A DNA stretch of 61,184 nt, from assembly GCF_017347085.1 (NCBI RefSeq), contig NZ_JADPSA010000004.1:1-61184 (forward strand), in the 5' to 3' direction. Below, one piece after another: positions 406 to 8,974 of this stretch. Numbering within the stretch: the stretch's first letter is position 1; each line of letters opens with the position of its first letter. The position numbers and the translations under genes are program-made. This DNA is from Nesterenkonia sp. E16_10. GTDB lineage: Bacteria > Actinomycetota > Actinomycetes > Actinomycetales > Micrococcaceae. The notes beneath the pieces are model-generated. The model had not been told where the DNA came from. It saw only the letters and a program-made list of their open reading frames with translations, and searched no databases.

Positions 406-477
406 ACCACACTCACGGAACAGGCGGCGCGCCTGGCACGGGAAAAGGTATACGGGGCAGTGCGGAGGGCAGCGTGA
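403..477 (+). pseudogene. 3' remnant of a phage gene cut off by the IS element
   Basis: Directly after the IS3 right end, one frame reads LTEQAARLAREKVYGAVRRA and stops with TGA at 475-477. It overlaps the GTG start of the next gene as GTGA, the coupling seen throughout this phage module. About 22 codons remain. The original function is not visible. In comparable actinobacterial elements a primase/polymerase gene often precedes the DUF3631 gene, so a replication protein is a reasonable guess only. Confidence 0.5.
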
Positions 478-1763
478 TTGAAACTGCCAAGCCTGGCGAA
501 GCGGTCTTGAGATCCTTGCACGACTGGCTTACTCGGTTCATCGGAGTCATGCGAGACGACGACATCGACATCCTCACCCTATGGATCGCACATAGCCACT
601 TCACCTCGGTTACCAGAACCACACCGCGACTGCTTATCAGTAGCCCTGTGCCGGGTTCCGGCAAGACAACCCTCCTGGAACACATGGGACACCTGGCGCT
701 CGACTCAGTGCAGATGAGCACCATTTCCTCACCCGCACTACTGACGAGGATGCTCGCCGAAAGACCGCGCACCGTCCTGATCGACGAAGCAGACCGCAGC
801 CTCAACCCGAAGAACGAGGGGGTCGGCGAGATCCTGGCGGTCATCAACACCGGGTACAAGCAGGGTGCCACCCGCCCCGTGCTGGTTCCTCACAAAGAAG
901 AAGGCTGGGTTGCCAAAGAGTTTCCCACCTACGCTCCGGTCGCCATTGCGGGCAACAGTCCCAACCTTCCGGAAGACACGCTCCAGCGTTGCATCGTGGT
1001 GCACATGGCTCCCTCGGATGACGTTGAAGAGTCCGACTGGGAAGGCATAGAACACGACGCAGCCGCACTCGGAGAAGTCATCGGCAAGTGGGCTGAAGGC
1101 AATCTCAACGTCGCCAAACCATCACCCCCACTGCCGGAAGCAGTCACAGGTCGAAACAAGGAGAAGTGGCGGCCACTGAAGCGAGTAGCCGTCGCGGCTG
1201 GAGGGCGCTGGCCGGAGACAGTGGACCGCCTCGCCCTCGCTGACGTCCAGCGGATCGAAACGGAGAAGGAAGACGGCATCCTCCAGGACCGGCCACACAT
1301 CATCCTGCTCAAGCATCTGGCAGAGATCTGGCCCAGAGGTCAGAGCTTCACGGACTCCAAGACGCTCCTGGATCACCTCACGTTCCAATATCCAGACGTC
1401 TGGGGAAGTGGCTCGAGCTTCGACAAGTCCCTCACCTATCAGCGCATGGGCCGGATGCTCTCCAAGAACTTCGGCCTACAGACCGACCGACCCAACACCC
1501 AAGGGCCTAGAGGTTACTCCCGCGCCAAGCTCAACCCCCTCTGGAGCCGGTTGGGGATACCTCTCCCGGATAAACCGGATAAAGCGGCTCAACCGGCTGA
1601 ACCGGATAACACCTTTATCCACATATCCAGTTCAGCCACATTATCCGGTTCGCCGGAGACACCTTCTGATAGTGGCTCAGCCTGTCCCCTGCATGGCACC
1701 AGTCCAGTCACCGACTGCTACACATGCGATCAGATCGCAGCTCAACGAAAGGAGGCGGCATGA
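474..1763 (+). CDS. DUF3631-type phage ATPase (replication helicase-like)
   Basis: This 429-residue P-loop ATPase has a Walker A motif PGSGKTT near residue 60 and Walker B LIDEAD near 102. The layout matches DUF3631 proteins, which sit in replication modules of actinobacterial phages and integrated elements and are thought to act as helicases or primase partners. The C-terminal third is rich in Pro, Ser and Thr and probably disordered. The GTG start overlaps the stop of the truncated upstream gene (GTGA). No ATG lies nearby, although the frame is open back to 390. The gene starts the surviving phage module, so its native promoter was probably lost with the IS insertion. Confidence 0.75.
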   Translation: MIETAKPGEAVLRSLHDWLTRFIGVMRDDDIDILTLWIAHSHFTSVTRTTPRLLISSPVPGSGKTTLLEHMGHLALDSVQMSTISSPALLTRMLAERPRTVLIDEADRSLNPKNEGVGEILAVINTGYKQGATRPVLVPHKEEGWVAKEFPTYAPVAIAGNSPNLPEDTLQRCIVVHMAPSDDVEESDWEGIEHDAAALGEVIGKWAEGNLNVAKPSPPLPEAVTGRNKEKWRPLKRVAVAAGGRWPETVDRLALADVQRIETEKEDGILQDRPHIILLKHLAEIWPRGQSFTDSKTLLDHLTFQYPDVWGSGSSFDKSLTYQRMGRMLSKNFGLQTDRPNTQGPRGYSRAKLNPLWSRLGIPLPDKPDKAAQPAEPDNTFIHISSSATLSGSPETPSDSGSACPLHGTSPVTDCYTCDQIAAQRKEAA

Positions 1764-2176
1764 AGATCTGTCTCAGCTGCGGTGAACCATCAGCGCAGAA
1801 CTATTGCGGTGAACATCTTCTCGAGACTCGGAAAGCACAGCGACCGAAGAAGACAGGAAGTGCCAGCGCCCGGGGCTACGGCTACAGGTGGGCGCGCCTC
1901 TCCCGCAAGGCCCGCAAGCTCCAACCCTTCTGCACCGACTGCGGATCCACACAGGATCTCCAGCTCGACCACACAGAAGAAACCTGGTGGCGCTACCTCA
2001 ACAGCAAACCCATCGGACTAGAACACACGGGCGGCGTCGTATGTCACGGCTGCAACGTCGCACGCGGCCAAGCAAGACCCGGGGGAGAGGGGTCGACTGC
2101 ACCCCGTCCGAGACGCGGGCCGGTAGGCCAAATCCCCGACTCATTCTCAATAGGTTCTCAACAAGGGGGTTCGTGA
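1760..2176 (+). CDS. HNH endonuclease (phage packaging-associated)
   Basis: This 138-residue protein has an N-terminal zinc-knuckle-like segment (CLSCG, then YC-x2-H) and a C-terminal HNH core: FCTDCG, LQLDH near residue 70, and VCHGCN near residue 98. HNH enzymes encoded directly before the large terminase take part in DNA cleavage during packaging of cos-type phages. The ATG at 1760 overlaps the preceding stop as ATGA and has a strong AAAGGAGG ribosome site at 1748-1755, so this start is preferred to an in-frame alternative 12 codons upstream. No separate small-terminase gene is visible, so its role here is open. Confidence 0.85.
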   Translation: MKICLSCGEPSAQNYCGEHLLETRKAQRPKKTGSASARGYGYRWARLSRKARKLQPFCTDCGSTQDLQLDHTEETWWRYLNSKPIGLEHTGGVVCHGCNVARGQARPGGEGSTAPRPRRGPVGQIPDSFSIGSQQGGS

Positions 2177-3651
2177 TGGTCAAAGCAGGACCTAAGCGGG
2201 CTGCTGATGAGTCACCGCTTCCTTTCAAGCCTAGGGTTACGGGCTCTGCTCGGTTCGGGAAGTTCACGGAGAAGTTCATACGGGTGCCGAAGGGGTACGG
2301 GGCGGGCACACCGCTTCGTCTGAGGCCCTGGCAGTTGGATTTGGTGGGCAGTGTTTTGGACGCGAATCCGTGGCCGACACAGGCGGGCTGGATGCTTCCC
2401 AGGGGACAGGGGAAGTCGTCCCTGGTGGCGGCTCTCGGACTCTATGACCTGATTCTGGGTGAAGAGGGCGCGTCGGTGGTGGTGGCTGCTGTGAATGAGC
2501 AACAGGCCGGGATCGTGTTCCGGACTGCGGCGCGCATGGTGGAGCTGAACGAGGATCTGAGCACACGGATCCACACGTTCAAGGATCGGCTGGAGGTTCC
2601 CGGCAAGGGCTCCACGTTCCAGGTCATGCCAGCCTCACCGAAGGCCCTGGAGGGACTGGATCCCACACTGGCGATTGTCGATGAGGTCGGTGTCGTGAAC
2701 CGGGACGTGTGGGAAGTGATCGCACTGGCGCAGGGCAAGCGTGAACGCTCCACGATGATCGGGATCGGCACACCTGGACCGGACCCCCACGACAGTGTTC
2801 TGACGGATCTGCGGGACTACAACCGCAAGTACCCGGACGATCACACCCTGGCATGGCGGGAGTTCTCCGCTGCGGGGTTCACCGATCACCCGGTGGACTG
2901 TGAGCACTGCTGGGAACTGGCGAACCCAGCACTGGGCGACTTCCTCAACAAAGACACCATCCGGGCACTGCTCCCACCGAAGACCAGGGAGTCAACGTTC
3001 AGGCGGGCAAGGCTCTGTCAGTTCGTCACGGAGACCACGGGCGCGTTCCTGCCGGACGGTCGGTGGGAGGACATGAACACCGGGGAAGAGATCGCGGAGG
3101 GGGAGGACGTGGTGATCTCCCTGGACGGATCGTTCAACGGCGATTCGACTGCGGTGCTGGTGGCGCGTATCGGCATGGAACCTCACTTCGACGTGGTGGG
3201 CCTGTGGGATCCGGCTGACCACGACGAGGACTACCGGGTGCCGGTGGAGGAAGTCGAAGACGCGATCAGAGCGGCGTGCAAGCGGTGGAACGTCCTGGAG
3301 GTCACGGCTGATCCCTTCCGCTGGACCAGGACATTGCAGGTGCTCGAGAAGGAAGGCATCCCGATCACGGAGTTCCCCTGGTCGGCAGCACGGATCACCC
3401 CGGCGACCACGGACTTCTACAACGCGTGCATCAACGGGCAGATCACACACTCAGGGGACCCACGGCTGGCCGAGCACATCGGCAACGCGGTGGTGAATGA
3501 GACCGAACGCGGGGTCCGACTGGATAAGTCCCGCAAACACACCACACGAAAGATCGACCTTGCCGCCTGTGCAGTCATGGGGCACTCACGGGCGCAGTGG
3601 CGGGCGATGACCAAGAAGAAGAACAGACGAGCGAGGAGTTTCAAACGATGA
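2176..3651 (+). CDS. Phage terminase large subunit
   Basis: This 491-residue DNA-packaging motor has an ATPase half with Walker A-like LPRGQGKSS (about 74-82) and Walker B LAIVDEVG (about 165-172). The nuclease half follows, with acidic residues in SLDGSFNGDST (about 313-323) and a late aspartate near RKIDLAAC. Terminases cut and pump phage DNA into the prohead through the portal. The ATG at 2176 overlaps the HNH stop by one base and has an AGGGGG ribosome site. The frame stays open far upstream, but that part overlaps the HNH gene and is not coding. The length is usual for siphovirus-type terminases, and both active centres look intact. Confidence 0.92.
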   Translation: MVKAGPKRAADESPLPFKPRVTGSARFGKFTEKFIRVPKGYGAGTPLRLRPWQLDLVGSVLDANPWPTQAGWMLPRGQGKSSLVAALGLYDLILGEEGASVVVAAVNEQQAGIVFRTAARMVELNEDLSTRIHTFKDRLEVPGKGSTFQVMPASPKALEGLDPTLAIVDEVGVVNRDVWEVIALAQGKRERSTMIGIGTPGPDPHDSVLTDLRDYNRKYPDDHTLAWREFSAAGFTDHPVDCEHCWELANPALGDFLNKDTIRALLPPKTRESTFRRARLCQFVTETTGAFLPDGRWEDMNTGEEIAEGEDVVISLDGSFNGDSTAVLVARIGMEPHFDVVGLWDPADHDEDYRVPVEEVEDAIRAACKRWNVLEVTADPFRWTRTLQVLEKEGIPITEFPWSAARITPATTDFYNACINGQITHSGDPRLAEHIGNAVVNETERGVRLDKSRKHTTRKIDLAACAVMGHSRAQWRAMTKKKNRRARSFKR

Positions 3652-4949
3652 GCACTACACAGCTACAGGCACTGATTCAGGAGATCGACGGACGCAAGAC
3701 GAAGCTGGATCCGCTGGACAAGTACTACAACGGGAATCCGCCGCTGGCGTTCCTCACTCCGGAGGCGCGTGAGGCGCTGGGCAACAGGTTCGGGCATATC
3801 GCGTCGAACTTCTGCCGGCTCACGGTGACGTCAATCGCGGAGCGGCTACGGATCACCGGGTTCACCCGAGGCGGGCAGGCAGACCCGGCACTCTGGGCCG
3901 ACTGGTCACGCAATGACCTCGACCAGCTCGCGGGCACTCTGCACCGTGAAGCACTCACTCTGGGAACCGCGTATGCGATCGTCTGGGCGGACAGCACAGG
4001 GGCGCCGAGCATCAGTGTTGAGTCTGCTCACCAGATGACGGTGCTGCGGGATCCTGGCACACGGCAACTGGTGGCAGCGGTGAAGAAGTGGAACACCGCC
4101 ACCGGATCGGAGGCAGTCCTGTACGGGCCGGAGAAGATCATCCGCTACGTCTCCGACTCCCAGAACGCCACGTCGGGGGCACAGTTCAAGGTCAGTGAAT
4201 CCATCGATAACCCGCTGGGCGTGGTGCCGGTGGTGGAGTTCCGCAACAGTGACCGGCTGCTCGACGAAGGGGTCTCCGAGCTGCGGGACGTGATCCCGCT
4301 CCAGGACTCTCTGAACAAGCTGCTGGCGGATCTCATGGTTGGTTCGGAGTACTACGCACGGCCTCGACGCTGGGCCACCGGGATCGAGCTGGAAGAGGAC
4401 GAAGACGGCGAGGCAGAGAACCCGTATCCCGAGGGCAACCGGATGATGATCGCGGAGGCCCCGGACGCGAAGTTTGGGCAGCTCGCGGCGGCTGACCTGA
4501 ACAGCTATGACACGGCGATCCGGACCATCGTCTCTCAGATCATGGCGGTCTCGTCTCTGCCGGGTCACTACACCGGGATCGTAACGAATCAGCCGCCGAA
4601 CGCGGACGGGCTGCGGGCGGCAGAGGCATCACTGACAGCACGGGTGGAGCAGAGGCAGCACCAGTTTGGACGCGGTTGGGAGCAGGTGATGAACCTGGCT
4701 CACGCGATCCGGACCAACACCGATCCATCAGCGGCACGAGTGAGTGTGGTTTGGGCGGATCCTGCCACTCGGTCTATGGCGCAGGAAGCAGACGCGGTGG
4801 TGAAGCTCTACCAGGCGGGACTGCTCCCGGCATCGGCGGCACTGGAACGTCTGGGGTACACGGATGAGCAGATCACCCAGATCCGGAACTCACGACGGGC
4901 TGAGGCGCTGGACGCCGCTGGGACTGACCTGGGAGCCCTGCTGGTATGA
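3648..4949 (+). CDS. Phage portal protein (SPP1 gp6-like)
   Basis: This 433-residue protein begins with the pattern common to SPP1 gp6-like portals: an N-terminal helix, DKYYNGNPPL, then NFCRLTVTSIAERL. A central acidic clip segment (LEEDEDGEAENPYP) precedes the long C-terminal helical region. Portals form the dodecameric ring through which the terminase moves DNA and to which the head-tail connectors attach. The ATG overlaps the terminase stop (ATGA) and has a GAGGAG ribosome site. No frameshift or internal stop is seen. Confidence 0.9.
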   Translation: MSTTQLQALIQEIDGRKTKLDPLDKYYNGNPPLAFLTPEAREALGNRFGHIASNFCRLTVTSIAERLRITGFTRGGQADPALWADWSRNDLDQLAGTLHREALTLGTAYAIVWADSTGAPSISVESAHQMTVLRDPGTRQLVAAVKKWNTATGSEAVLYGPEKIIRYVSDSQNATSGAQFKVSESIDNPLGVVPVVEFRNSDRLLDEGVSELRDVIPLQDSLNKLLADLMVGSEYYARPRRWATGIELEEDEDGEAENPYPEGNRMMIAEAPDAKFGQLAAADLNSYDTAIRTIVSQIMAVSSLPGHYTGIVTNQPPNADGLRAAEASLTARVEQRQHQFGRGWEQVMNLAHAIRTNTDPSAARVSVVWADPATRSMAQEADAVVKLYQAGLLPASAALERLGYTDEQITQIRNSRRAEALDAAGTDLGALLV

Positions 4950-5488
4950 GCATCCACGACACGGTGGCGACTCTCTCACGGGAGACCAGGACACGCCTGG
5001 CGGCGCTGCACGGGCGCTACGAGGACGGGGAGCTGTCCTGGGCTCAGTTCATGGACCTGGGAACGGCGGAGGCGTCACGGAGGTCTCAGGCCGCGTCGTC
5101 CCTGGCAGCTCTCGCGGTCGCCGCTGAACTGTCCCGGCTCTCAGGCAGGGTCAGGGCACCGACCGGGGGAGGGGCCGGCTATGACATCGAGACGGCTGCA
5201 CGGTCTCAGCTCGATGAGCAGACCTCCGCGCAGTCCTACCAGCAGGACGGCAACACCGCTATGGGCATCGCGGGGGCGGCGGTGGTTATGGCCGCTTACC
5301 AGGACACCACGGCCCGGTCTATGCGGGATCAGGGGGTCACGTTCTCCCAACGCGTGGTGGAGCCCGACGCGTGCCCCATCTGTCAGGACATGGCAGACAT
5401 CATCCTGCCGACCACGCAGAACCACTATCACCACAAAGGCTGCGCGTGCATCGCAGTTCCAGTCTCAGAGAATGGAGAAGACCAGTGA
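4946..5488 (+). CDS. MuF-like minor head protein
   Basis: This 180-residue protein is encoded between portal and scaffold, the usual place for MuF/SPP1 gp7-like head morphogenesis proteins. Its C-terminal segment has the compact Cys/His signature of that family: CPICQDM, then HYHHKGCACI. The N-terminal half is helical and rich in Ala, Arg and Ser. At 180 residues it is a short member without any attached effector domain. The ATG overlaps the portal stop (ATGA). A few copies of such proteins are normally packaged inside the head next to the portal. Confidence 0.8.
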   Translation: MSIHDTVATLSRETRTRLAALHGRYEDGELSWAQFMDLGTAEASRRSQAASSLAALAVAAELSRLSGRVRAPTGGGAGYDIETAARSQLDEQTSAQSYQQDGNTAMGIAGAAVVMAAYQDTTARSMRDQGVTFSQRVVEPDACPICQDMADIILPTTQNHYHHKGCACIAVPVSENGEDQ

Positions 5489-5928
5489 CCGAAGAACAGA
5501 CCACAGAAGCACCGGAAGAGCAGGAAACTCCGGAGGCACCGGAGGAAGATGCTCCGATTTCAGCTCCGACCAAGCCGGACGAAGAAACCGAGGAAGAATC
5601 GGGCCAGTTTCCCCGGTCCTATGTGGAGAAGCTGCGAGACGAGAACGCCAAGTACCGGCAGCGGGCGCAGCGGGCAGACGAGTTGGCCCACGAGCTGCAC
5701 AGAAGCCGCGTGGAGGCGACTGGGAGGCTCGCAGATCCCACGGACCTGGAGTTCTCCGACGAGCACCTGGAAGACGTGGAGAAGCTCACACAGGCGATTG
5801 ATGTGCTGCTGACCAGGAAGCCTCACCTCGCGGCACGGAGACCGGCCGGAAACATCGGACAGGGGACTGTGTCGCACAACACCTCTACAGTGGACCTAGC
5901 CGGGCTACTCCGGGCCGGTGCCAACTGA
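5485..5928 (+). CDS. Capsid scaffolding-like protein
   Basis: This 147-residue protein is very acidic at the N-terminus (repeated TEEQ, APEEQE and EEDA stretches). A predicted helical, coiled-coil-like middle follows (SYVEKLRDENAKYRQRAQRA), then a small C-terminal domain. This composition, and its place directly before the capsid gene, fit a phage scaffolding protein that templates prohead assembly. The GTG at 5485 overlaps the previous stop as GTGA and has a GGAGAAG ribosome site, so it is chosen over an upstream in-frame ATG lying inside the MuF gene. No head maturation protease is encoded in the window. Confidence 0.75.
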   Translation: MTEEQTTEAPEEQETPEAPEEDAPISAPTKPDEETEEESGQFPRSYVEKLRDENAKYRQRAQRADELAHELHRSRVEATGRLADPTDLEFSDEHLEDVEKLTQAIDVLLTRKPHLAARRPAGNIGQGTVSHNTSTVDLAGLLRAGAN

Positions 5929-5936
5929 GGAGGAAC

Positions 5937-6161
5937 ATGACTGAAAAGAACGCAGTCGCATCTGCTTTGTACGATGAAATATTGAATACTTTGAAGCACG
6001 AGAAGGAAAAAGGTAACGAGGTAAACCAGGCAGGAATAGTGCATACACCTGCCTTAAAGAGCCTCGCTGAGGCGTTTGCCACGGTCGCAGAACATGCGCC
6101 CGGAAAAAGAGAGAAGGACGAGGGATCAGGGATCCCGAATCCCCCTCGCAGACTCCGCTGA
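5937..6161 (+). CDS. Small charged phage protein, function unknown
   Basis: This 74-residue hypothetical protein has a good GAGGAGG ribosome site directly upstream, which supports real translation. The sequence is rich in Lys and Glu with a helical first half (LYDEILNTLKHEKEKG) and a basic, Pro-containing end. Base composition is clearly lower in GC than its neighbours. It lies between scaffold and capsid, where head decoration or assembly factors are sometimes encoded. I do not recognise a family. Confidence 0.6.
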   Translation: MTEKNAVASALYDEILNTLKHEKEKGNEVNQAGIVHTPALKSLAEAFATVAEHAPGKREKDEGSGIPNPPRRLR

Positions 6162-6178
6162 AAGCACCGCATACGTGC

Positions 6179-6235
6179 TACAATGAGGGGGTCGGGCCTG
6201 GTGTCCGGCCCTCTCATTCTGTGTCCTGGCGACAC
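6179..6235 (+). promoter_or_regulatory. Promoter-like TACAAT followed by two tandem hairpins before the capsid gene
   Basis: TACAAT at 6179-6184 resembles a -10 box, although no good -35 is present. It is followed at once by a 13-bp stem (6185-6197 with 6203-6215, G-U pairs included, 5-base loop), then a 5-bp hairpin, GTGTC/GACAC, at 6221-6235. The capsid ATG comes 40 bases later. The stems lack a T-run, so a strong terminator is unlikely. A transcript-stabilising leader or a dedicated capsid promoter is the better reading. Confidence 0.45.
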
Positions 6236-6274
6236 GAGGAACTCACACTCCCTCTTATCGCTAGGACTTTTTTC

Positions 6275-7117
6275 ATGGCACTGAACACCACTGACACCCC
6301 GGAACTGCTCCAGGAGCAGGTTTCCTCCCTCCTGATCCAGCCGCTCGAAACAGCATCTATCGTGCTGGCCGCTGGACCCCGGATCTTCGACACGGCCTCG
6401 CCGCTACGGATCCCCAAGCTCGTCGGCTCCGGAACCCCCGCATGGGTAGGAGAGTCCGAGCAGATCCCCGACGACTACACCGCCGAGTTCGACGAGGTCC
6501 GGCTGATGCCCGAGGGGCGCAAGTCGGTCAAGGTCATCACCCGCTACTCGAACGAGCTGGCACGCCAGTCCGTCGTCGGCCTCGACGCGGTGCTGCGGTC
6601 CCGACTGGTCAACGATGTCTCGTCCATGATCGACGACGCGTTCCTCAACGGAGACGGCACCAACGATTCAGTGACCGGCATCTTCAACCAGCCCGGAACC
6701 CAGACTGCACCGCTGGACCTCACCAGCGCAGACACCTTCCTCGACGCACTGGCAGTCACCACGGCAGCGGAAGTCACTCCGAACCGTTGGTTCCTCAACG
6801 CTCAGGACTTCATCACCGTTCGGAAGCTCAAGGACAACAACGGGCGCTACCTCCTGGAGTCGGATCTCACCCGCGACGCGACTTACCGGCTGTTCAACAT
6901 TCCGGTGACCGTGTCCAACAAGGTTCCGGCAGGCAAGGCGGTTCTCGCGGATATCTCACAGGTGGCTGTCGCCCGTGACACCAACCCGCAGATCAAGATC
7001 CTCGATCAGCGCTACGCCGAGTTCGACCAGCAGGCGATCCGGGTCACCGCCCGGTTTGACCTCGGACTGCTCCACCCGCAGGGCGTCGTCATCCTGGACA
7101 GCGCTGCGGGGGTCTGA
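6275..7117 (+). CDS. Phage major capsid protein (HK97 fold)
   Basis: This 280-residue protein matches HK97-fold major capsid proteins: an N-terminal strand region (IPKLVGSGTPAWVGESEQIP), the spine helix segment around LRSRLVNDVSSMIDDAFLNG, and a C-terminal domain including DLGLLHPQGVV. It lacks the long N-terminal delta domain of HK97 itself, consistent with a separate scaffold gene upstream. The ATG at 6275 is preferred to the in-frame GTG at 6221, because the latter lies inside the leader hairpin and would add an untypical tail. The AGGA at 6263-6266 is a modest ribosome site. Confidence 0.88.
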   Translation: MALNTTDTPELLQEQVSSLLIQPLETASIVLAAGPRIFDTASPLRIPKLVGSGTPAWVGESEQIPDDYTAEFDEVRLMPEGRKSVKVITRYSNELARQSVVGLDAVLRSRLVNDVSSMIDDAFLNGDGTNDSVTGIFNQPGTQTAPLDLTSADTFLDALAVTTAAEVTPNRWFLNAQDFITVRKLKDNNGRYLLESDLTRDATYRLFNIPVTVSNKVPAGKAVLADISQVAVARDTNPQIKILDQRYAEFDQQAIRVTARFDLGLLHPQGVVILDSAAGV

Positions 7118-7121
7118 GCCA

Positions 7122-7445
7122 ATGAGCTACGTTCAGGCACCTATCGGTGATGACGTGGCTTCGTTCCTCGGTCTGGACGATGACCCCGCCGTCGTCGCCC
7201 TGGCCGGGGAGCACGCTCCCATCATCCGAGCTATGGCAATGGCCTACACGCGCGGCAACGGCTTCGTGGGCACAGAGGTGCAGGAAGACATCTATGCCGT
7301 CCTCGTCGCCGCTACAGCCCGCCTAGTCGCTAACCCCGAGCAGCTGCACTACGCGGCAGGCTCAGCGCGGATCTCAGGGGCATTCAACGGCTGGACGCTC
7401 CCGGAACAGTTCGTGCTCAACCGGTACAGGAAGAGGGCAAGCTGA
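7122..7445 (+). CDS. Head-tail adaptor (connector) protein
   Basis: This 107-residue protein is encoded right after the capsid. It is mostly alpha-helical with a pattern like gp6/gp15-type adaptors that bind the bottom of the portal: an N-terminal VASFLGLDDDP segment, then helices with EVQEDIYAVLVAATARLVAN, and a C-terminal FVLNRYRKR. Position and size carry most of the weight, since these proteins are divergent. The ATG is 4 bases after the capsid stop. Confidence 0.65.
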   Translation: MSYVQAPIGDDVASFLGLDDDPAVVALAGEHAPIIRAMAMAYTRGNGFVGTEVQEDIYAVLVAATARLVANPEQLHYAAGSARISGAFNGWTLPEQFVLNRYRKRAS

Positions 7446-7777
7446 TGCTGTTCCACGACCGGGTGAGCATCGAAGGTGAGGCCGAGATCATCGACTACGA
7501 CCCCTACGGCCTGCCCATCTACGGACCCGCCACGTCGCAGGTGATCCCCGCGCACGTTGACGCCACCACCACATCGGACGGCTCACAGGAGCAGGCCAAC
7601 CAAGTCATCAGTCGCTACCGAGTCCTGTTGAGGCTTCCCGCTGGACTGGAAGCAGACGGCATCAAGGAAGTGACTTGGAAGGGCAAGACTCTGACGGTTG
7701 ACGGGACGGTCCAGCCGCAGATGCTCCGAGGCCGGATCAACCACCACGAATTCGTCACTGAAAGAGTCACCGGCTAA
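7445..7777 (+). CDS. Head-closure (stopper) protein
   Basis: This 110-residue, beta-rich protein overlaps the adaptor gene by one base (TGATG). Its start (MLFHDRVSI) and later VTWKGKTLTVDG are typical of SPP1 gp16/HK97 gp7-like stoppers, which plug the filled head and provide the docking surface for tails. It is the last recognisable phage gene. No tail terminator, tail tube, tape measure, lysis or integration gene follows, which is unusual for an ordinary prophage. Confidence 0.6.
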   Translation: MLFHDRVSIEGEAEIIDYDPYGLPIYGPATSQVIPAHVDATTTSDGSQEQANQVISRYRVLLRLPAGLEADGIKEVTWKGKTLTVDGTVQPQMLRGRINHHEFVTERVTG

Positions 7778-8016: not shown

Positions 8017-8235
8017 ATGTACATGAGCGCACTGACCCTACCTCGCATCCATACCCTCAGGTATGCGTCTTCTGAGAGCGTTCACCTCATTGCGACCCCC
8101 AATGATGACGGCCTCACTGATAGTGAGCGCCAGCGGTATGCGGACCAGTACCGCGAGCAGCACCTTACTGTCACTAGCGAGGATCTAAAGGCCGCTAGGC
8201 AAACTTTAGGTGCCATTGGACGATACGCCGCCTAA
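8017..8235 (+). CDS. Small protein coupled to a GNAT acetyltransferase
   Basis: This 72-residue protein has an N-terminal strand-like segment (LPRIHTLRYASSESVHLI) and a C-terminal helix (SEDLKAARQTLGAIGRYAA). The ATG at 8017 has a GGCGGGGG ribosome site 6 bases upstream. A second ATG at 8023 is possible. The stop codon is followed directly by the start of the acetyltransferase gene, so the two are translated together. No family is recognised. In this position it could be an antitoxin or specificity partner, but no DNA-binding motif is obvious. Confidence 0.5.
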   Translation: MYMSALTLPRIHTLRYASSESVHLIATPNDDGLTDSERQRYADQYREQHLTVTSEDLKAARQTLGAIGRYAA

Positions 8236-8760
8236 GTGGAGGTCACCGTCACCGAGGCCGCGCCTCATCATATAGGCGCCCTCACGACGTTCTGTTGTGC
8301 AGACCCAGCGGGATGGGTGCGCGATCCCGTTCGAGGAAAGTATCACCCGCAGCCTCACGCAATGAAGACGCAGTCAATGGTCCGGGACCTCAAGCCGCAG
8401 AAGATTCCCAAAGACGACTTGCTACTACTTGGAGTCAATGACCAGACAATACTGAGTGTCTTGTTGCTCCGGATGGGCGACGATCCCGATCCATCCTCCG
8501 TCGATGAGTCAGGCTTCTTCCTCGTAGGACTCCTGGCGGTCCGAATCGATGCTCAAGGACAGGGCTTTGGTCGTCAGATGTTGGATCTGGCGCTCACGAT
8601 TGTCGAGGAGAATCGCGACAGCAAGCCCAAATGTCATTCTTGGCCGACCCTGGCAAGGATCGAGTCCACGAATGAGGCTAGCAAGCGACTCTTCCGTAGT
8701 CGCGGATTCGCCTACTCCAAGAACGTCGATGAGGAGCTGGAACTTTGGGCGCACCCCTAG
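8236..8760 (+). CDS. GNAT-family N-acetyltransferase
   Basis: This 174-residue protein carries the GNAT acetyl-CoA signature: a strand FLVGLLAVRID, then the pyrophosphate loop AQGQGFGRQML at about 108-118, and the late NEASKRLFRSRGF motif. GNAT enzymes move an acetyl group from acetyl-CoA to an amine on a small molecule, protein or aminoacyl-tRNA. The substrate cannot be read from sequence. The GTG start abuts the stop of the 72-residue gene, implying coupling. The pair lies in lower-GC accessory DNA beside the phage module, so it may be cargo of that element. Confidence 0.75.
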   Translation: MEVTVTEAAPHHIGALTTFCCADPAGWVRDPVRGKYHPQPHAMKTQSMVRDLKPQKIPKDDLLLLGVNDQTILSVLLLRMGDDPDPSSVDESGFFLVGLLAVRIDAQGQGFGRQMLDLALTIVEENRDSKPKCHSWPTLARIESTNEASKRLFRSRGFAYSKNVDEELELWAHP

Positions 8761-8915: not shown

Positions 8916-8974
8916 GTAGGAGTCCTACACCCGGCAGTAAAGCCAGGAGGGCACCCGGCAGTAAAGCCAGGAGG
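8916..8974. repeat. Inverted repeat plus 23-bp direct repeat (two copies)
   Basis: GTAGGA-G-TCCTAC at 8916-8928 is a perfect short palindrome. It leads into two identical 23-bp copies (8928-8950 and 8952-8974, period 24; core CCCGGCAGTAAAGCCAGGAG). The repeats lie about 50 bases before the start of the monooxygenase-fold gene and mark the return to high-GC backbone. They may be a regulator-binding array or the edge of the inserted element. Confidence 0.5.

Follow-up and report, generated by a model that had tools for sequence, protein, structure and literature searches.

The first 61,184 bases of contig NZ_JADPSA010000004.1 (C4) of Nesterenkonia sp. E16_10, the whole stretch that was analyzed and hereafter the window, hold the right three quarters of a genomic island that is very probably an integrated, tail-less, capsid-encoding phage satellite and that most likely depends on tails borrowed from other viruses for its transfer. 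This identification rests on sequence; helper use, induction and particle formation are proposed by analogy with the Streptomyces satellite MulchRoom and with capsid-forming phage-inducible chromosomal islands (cf-PICIs), which were reportedly described by Alqurainy et al. in 2023 and the definition of which includes an integrase. A preliminary description of the same DNA had suggested a capsid-forming satellite working by cf-PICI logic, a proposal now supported by attachment (att) sites, an integrase and 26 recurring islands.

The island is placed at the 3′ end of glpX because a 20-bp repeat lies there and because a congener (G004) has an empty site, in which glpX is followed directly by the window's right flank. 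On contig C38 of the same genome, glpX ends in GAGTCCTACACCCGGCAGTA, and the identical 20 bases recur at window positions 8920-8939 (attR, forward strand, assigned by comparison with C38 and the empty site); attL, the same 20 bases, lies on C38 at L193:9667-9686, and the glpX reading frame is kept complete after insertion. Part of the att sequence also occurs in a short tandem repeat (CACCCGGCAGTAAAGCCAGGAGGG, two copies) at and just right of attR (window:8924-8980). The left end, which the preliminary description held to be lost to insertion sequences, was located at the end of C38, split off by one insertion sequence at an assembly break. The window's left edge is a contig end within this insertion sequence, whose right end occupies positions 1-404 on the forward strand (transposase C-terminus at 58-372, rve_3/rve_2 domains); the other end forms the C38 terminus (L193:12212 onward) and has an inverted-repeat match to the right end in the window. 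A CAC triplet outside both ends is a 3-bp target duplication, and we assigned the label IS3 from the domains and this duplication. Taken together, the shared triplet, the att repeats and the order of the genes suggest that C38, the insertion sequence and the window are contiguous. Without the insertion sequence, the island would measure 11,057 bases (2,545 + 8,535, minus one att copy and one triplet), and its G+C content is 60-62% versus 68-70% in the flanks.

Family and fold matches confirmed the previously described chain of head and packaging genes, which runs on the forward strand from an HNH nuclease to a stopper behind a DUF3631 gene. The DUF3631 replication ATPase-like protein (429 amino acids from a GTG start; 474-1763; PF12307, 1.2e-14) has a frame that is open back to the insertion sequence, and its N-terminus may be cut. 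It is followed by the HNH endonuclease (1760-2176; phrog_144, 2.3e-8, scanned from the ORF-finder start at 1724), which shares an ATGA overlap with the preceding gene, the terminase large subunit (2176-3651; phrog_9, 4.6e-88; PF03354, PF20441) and an SPP1-type portal protein (3648-4949; PF05133, 2e-40; phrog_104, 8.7e-115). Between portal and capsid sit genes for a MuF-like minor head protein without the protease half (4946-5488), recognized by a conserved Cys/His pattern, and a scaffolding protein (5485-5928; phrog_233, 2.3e-5). Its only resemblance to phage proteins carrying the annotation maturation protease is a weak match of the MuF-like protein to their N-terminal half; it gave no family match, and a fold search returned nothing usable (best E 1.1). 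After a small open reading frame (ORF) of unknown function (74 amino acids; 5937-6161), the slot of which holds a different ORF in L090-L092, comes the major capsid protein (280 amino acids; 6275-7117; PF05065, 1.2e-38), which has the length of mature HK97 gp5 and the profile of which matches mature HK97 chains of 282 amino acids. The head-tail adaptor (7122-7445; phrog_137 in six of 19 aligned sequences; fold like HK97 gp6 and SPP1 gp15) and the stopper, or head closure protein Hc1 (7445-7777; phrog_501, 2.5e-9), complete the set, the stopper gene being the last head gene. The head ORFs are intact and coupled by overlaps, as noted earlier, and the att sites and the recurrence of the island support the view that they are not the product of random decay.

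The C38 part encodes an intact 375-amino-acid tyrosine integrase (PF00589), a repressor-like helix-turn-helix protein and a small HTH_17 excisionase-like protein, in a gene order that matches related islands. Pfam- and PHROG-type family scans found no head protease family in any head gene of the window and no tail genes among the window's island genes, and no small terminase was recognized in window genes, with one of two unassigned short left-half ORFs scanned. The preliminary description had listed tail, lysis, protease and repressor genes as missing; the first three were not found in the scans, whereas a repressor-like gene is present on C38.

This layout recurs across Actinomycetota. A terminase profile run against viral contigs gave 96 confirmed loci, 80 of which were kept. 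A capsid profile, run with each species represented by a single genome, found 69 loci: 45 (L090-L134) carry actinobacterial titles, and the remaining 24 are distant (24-34% identity). Related loci occur in Nesterenkonia, Brevibacterium, Gordonia, Nocardia, Mycobacterium, Nocardioides and others. An integrase lies within the fetched stretch in 33 of the 45 actinobacterial loci; in ten of the other 12 the stretch opens at a contig edge, either right at the head genes or a little ahead of them, whereas L132 and L134 hold capsid fragments only. These fragments lie in long stretches with no terminase or integrase matches and appear to be decayed islands, and L121, where the integrase adjoins the capsid and no terminase is present, looks rearranged. 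An att test of 80 loci accepted 26 pairs, all exact repeats of at least 20 bp whose position fits a tRNA or the 3′ end of a gene; many viral contigs stop at, or close to, the boundaries of the element and so cannot show att sites. Shorter repeats did not qualify; nor did a run of N in L099, a palindrome in L024 or a repeat of 30 bp in L025, the near-identical element L105 having a tRNA repeat elsewhere. The 26 islands with accepted att measure 9,437-11,320 bp (mean 10,562, standard deviation 529), with att repeats overlapping ARAGORN tRNA genes in 19, and six of them (L100, L101, L104, L123, L125 and L127) are in records titled mycobacteria.

Within these islands, 147-2,470 bases separate the last recognized head gene from the end of attR, a gap that is counted from the last profile-recognized gene and hence from the adaptor where the stopper was unrecognized. 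No tail or lysis family was found among the 33 ORFs in this gap (31 from our simple gene caller with a 45-amino-acid floor, plus two regulators added by hand); they comprise regulators, two Hc1 proteins, one adaptor and unknowns. Ahead of the head genes are 104 ORFs, 64 of them at least 90 amino acids long, and the 57 of these that were scanned include, among the matches listed (25 of 58 families in one of the scans), AAA_25 in ten, primase and helicase families, and regulators. For loci with no accepted att, the best 25 of 70 families matched by 117 ORFs include no tail family, though one could be missed, and ten ORFs scanned singly gave none. The islands anticipated by the preliminary description do recur, at about 10-11 kb, with an integrase, replication genes, the head block and no recognized tail genes, at tRNA or gene 3′ ends. 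Their presence is patchy: at E≤1e-20 the capsid was found in five of 30 genus genomes and seven of 396 phylum genomes, both counts including this genome, and true island counts are lower because the weaker matches in G029, G191, G318 and G169 are longer capsids in other settings.

Several related loci depart from the common pattern. The island of Nesterenkonia sp. Act20 (L090:1219-1539 and 13844 onward) appears to lie inside a cpaF/tadA-like pilus ATPase gene, an N-terminal piece of which remains on the left by our reading of the sequence alone, and no att repeat longer than 12 bp was seen. In L076 (1-16422), two integrase-repressor-excisionase sets stand in tandem, an arrangement of one island with the beginning of another behind it. 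The terminases of the window (2176-3651) and of L092 (5940-7409) are 52% identical while their capsids are 91% identical, which suggests that islands trade packaging genes. L221 (G191:C7), which has integrase, excisionase-like and DUF3631-like genes, a 422-amino-acid capsid and no terminase match, may represent another, further reduced type of capsid-bearing element.

Ordinary phages are only distantly related to the island. Among 50,697 phage records, there were 297 matches to the capsid (27-29% identical in the best 40 listed), 2,215 to the portal (31-37% in the best 40 listed) and 1,841 to the terminase (29-34% in the best 40 listed), and a nucleotide search of the head block found no match in phages. 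In 14 phage regions whose head genes are distant relatives, the connectors are followed by genes annotated as tail genes; in four of these regions some unnamed genes intervene. Among the matches listed, no close relative was seen with the head block running on into tail genes, the arrangement that the preliminary description expected of a truncated ordinary prophage. The portal was also found in 11 plasmid records (best 46%), and a search with the stopper found seven homologues, none named as a phage protein, and one weak phage match (E 4e-3). A quick capsid tree of 69 rows, which we chose and which were found with island capsid queries, so that phages inside the group may be missed, and in which several outgroup branches are long, separated 47 island capsids from 12 phage and 10 other capsids by a branch with support 100; this fits one old lineage of island capsids.

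These observations suggest a life cycle in which, on induction, probably by a helper phage, the island would excise and replicate. Small heads would be assembled with the island's own scaffold and no protease, the separate scaffold gene standing in for the HK97 delta domain, and the island's terminase and HNH nuclease would package the roughly 11-kb genome. The stopper would then close the head and dock helper tails, with lysis supplied by the helper. Possible signs of forms outside the chromosome come from contigs. For the best 120 of 1,384 terminase homologues, the longest contig was 9.5-10.7 kb in 22 cases, 9.0-9.5 kb in two and 10.7-11.5 kb in none, an apparent pile-up at the island's own size that is not proof of packaging. 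Similarly, the 10,302-bp metagenomic sequence L042:1-10302 is a circular permutation of an island with the terminase gene at its start and the HNH gene at its end, as would be expected of an excised or concatemeric form, though again this does not prove packaging. L042 breaks between HNH and terminase, where a cos site might lie. Terminal repeats, sought as proof of circular genomes, were found in none of L003-L089.

A possible helper resides in the same genome as the island. The 35,376-bp prophage on contig C41 (G000:C41:1-35376; L195, L196) encodes small and large terminase subunits, portal, HK97 capsid, adaptor, Hc1, tail chaperone, tape measure, Dit and endolysin, and has the sole match to phrog_58 (tape measure) in the genome; since that match contains one TAA, the prophage may not be intact. 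Both its stopper and that of the island match phrog_501, but their connectors are otherwise not recognizably similar: a blastp search with the island adaptor gave three weak matches (E 0.36-0.97), none to C41 connectors.

Several points weigh against a tail-borrowing satellite. The window and C38 are separate contigs that we infer to be contiguous, and the satellite life cycle is proposed from gene content. No small terminase was recognized that would account for packaging specificity. No att repeat was accepted in L095, L099, L112, L119, L124 or L128, which have an integrase near the head block, nor in L090 or L092, and the capsid tree carries the limits given above. The island stopper had no blastp match at E≤1 among C41 prophage proteins, and phrog_58, the single tape-measure family tried, was not matched in the carriers G013, G023 and G027, which suggests that a resident helper of the C41 kind is not required for carriage.

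The neck offers a lead on how islands may relate to their helpers. Among seven pairs of islands whose capsids share at least 90% identity, stoppers are 52, 53, 55, 61, 64, 65 and 92% identical, as against 75-92% for the same-place gene in 21 tailed-phage pairs (capsids 80-99% identical), although in six phiC31-like phages this gene is a tail terminator in one record and unnamed in the rest, and may not be a true counterpart. Portals are also less similar in the island pairs (73-91% versus 86-94%), so part of the stopper gap is general divergence, whereas adaptors overlap (68-93% versus 73-97%). Six of the seven pairs derive from four Nesterenkonia islands and are not independent, and faster stopper divergence is best taken as a lead. 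With respect to head size, a published model equates a T (triangulation) number of about 2.49 with 8.94 kb, T=3 with 11.78 kb and T=4 with 17.98 kb, with wide, overlapping intervals (PMC7762592), which would put the mean island size between T of about 2.49 and T=3, nearer T=3. It is conceivable, though we consider it doubtful, that a single old, Actinomycetota-wide capsid lineage is used only by tail-less satellites, that their protease-free heads, built from a scaffold and a mature-length capsid, hold about 10.6 kb near the predicted, as yet unseen T=3 size, and that the stopper, as the part facing the tail, evolves far more quickly than the other head proteins, since each island adapts or exchanges its neck to suit a different helper tail.

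Alternatively, the island could be an autonomous tail-less virus, the heads of which leave and enter cells with no helper tail. In favor of this, three of the four carriers examined have no match to phrog_58, the tape-measure family tried. Nevertheless, portal, adaptor and stopper form a neck, a structure known to serve for tail attachment, neither a lysis gene nor one for receptor binding was recognized, and the comparable MulchRoom particles combine small heads with helper-length tails (PMC10690885), all of which makes autonomy quite improbable. We give equally little credence to direct membership of the described cf-PICI family with the protease and small terminase lost or diverged. The logic and order are the same (integrase, excisionase, replication, HNH, large terminase, portal, capsid and connectors, with no tail), but the window has no recognizable protease or small terminase and a separate scaffold, and the islands average 10.6 kb versus about 14 kb (PMC10803314; the two were compared by description only).

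A truncated ordinary prophage, whose head genes were left behind when those for tail, lysis and lysogeny were lost by deletion, is very unlikely indeed. The window alone does show heads without tails beside an insertion sequence, this copy is interrupted, and the capsid fragments of L132 and L134 indicate that decay occurs in the family. However, this island retains an integrase gene and the att site at either end, a congener shows the site unoccupied, the head ORFs, coupled by overlaps, are unbroken, and the same tail-less layout and size recur in the 26 islands with accepted att; no tail tube, tape measure or lysis genes were recognized within the att sites, here or in relatives. Finally, a gene-transfer-agent-like or domesticated head module, packaging host DNA or serving the host, would account for head genes with no tail or lysis genes and for one capsid group spread over the phylum, but the integrase, excisionase-like gene, att repeats, varied insertion sites and patchy presence look mobile and make it extremely improbable.

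If the satellite interpretation is right, head-making satellites are an established, widespread strategy in Actinomycetota, and tailed actinophages may move small islands between strains. The islands would also furnish compact, naturally occurring particles in which to examine how assembly proceeds without a protease near the predicted T=3 size, and how a neck takes on a foreign tail. Besides the satellite functions, this island carries a putative accessory gene for a GNAT acetyltransferase (8236-8760, forward strand; PF00583, 5e-5), preceded by a small ORF of unknown function and possibly accessory (8023-8235, forward strand; ORF call). A defence-system scan of seven island proteins gave only weak helix-turn-helix-type matches, to the repressor-like and excisionase-like proteins. 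Since the insertion sequence lies beside or in the DUF3631 gene, this copy's own replication may be impaired.

Among known systems, phiC31-like phages (capsid about 28%, terminase 33-34%) and Arthrobacter siphophages (portal 33-37%) have distant homologues among the matches listed, but in ten such regions, unlike in the island, the head genes lead on to tail genes and the annotation includes a maturation protease. Oceanic Charybdis elements were considered as a match and dropped, since no head genes were recognized in them in the parts of the source available (PMC12324425). At the level of titles and abstracts, with most subscription journals outside the scope, the searches listed no paper on a phylum-wide group or on Nesterenkonia islands. 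The Streptomyces satellites MulchRoom and MiniFlayer encode their own terminase, portal, scaffold, capsid and adaptor, and MulchRoom also an integrase; they differ in size (14.8 and 17.4 kb), in having terminal repeats (1.6 and 1.1 kb), in lacking a primase and in having virulent helpers, and the same source sets them apart from "predicted Actinomycetota PICIs" (PMC10690885).

Closer are the Mycobacterium candidate PICIs and phiRv1/phiRv2-like elements, islands with an integrase and a capsid, some also with terminase and scaffold genes and several at tRNA genes (PMC10654092). The present island is likewise a phage-like region with an integrase and a major capsid gene that is not a full prophage, though its host is not a Mycobacterium, and our six mycobacterial islands probably overlap the published set. 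That set is limited to Mycobacteriaceae and defined by integrase plus capsid, and the phylum-wide group, its tight size range and the neck anatomy do not figure in the parts of that paper available to us. The cf-PICIs have their own capsids, connectors, terminase, HNH and protease (PMC10690885), occur chiefly in hosts such as Enterobacteriaceae, lactobacilli and enterococci (PMC10803314), as opposed to the Actinomycetota hosts here, and their capsids fall into three clades (PMC11389934). Because a head protease was sought and not found, we do not file the Nesterenkonia island as a cf-PICI, although it would work alike: it is an integrated island with integrase and excisionase-like genes, att sites, its own capsid, portal, connectors, large terminase and HNH nuclease, and no recognized tail or lysis genes.

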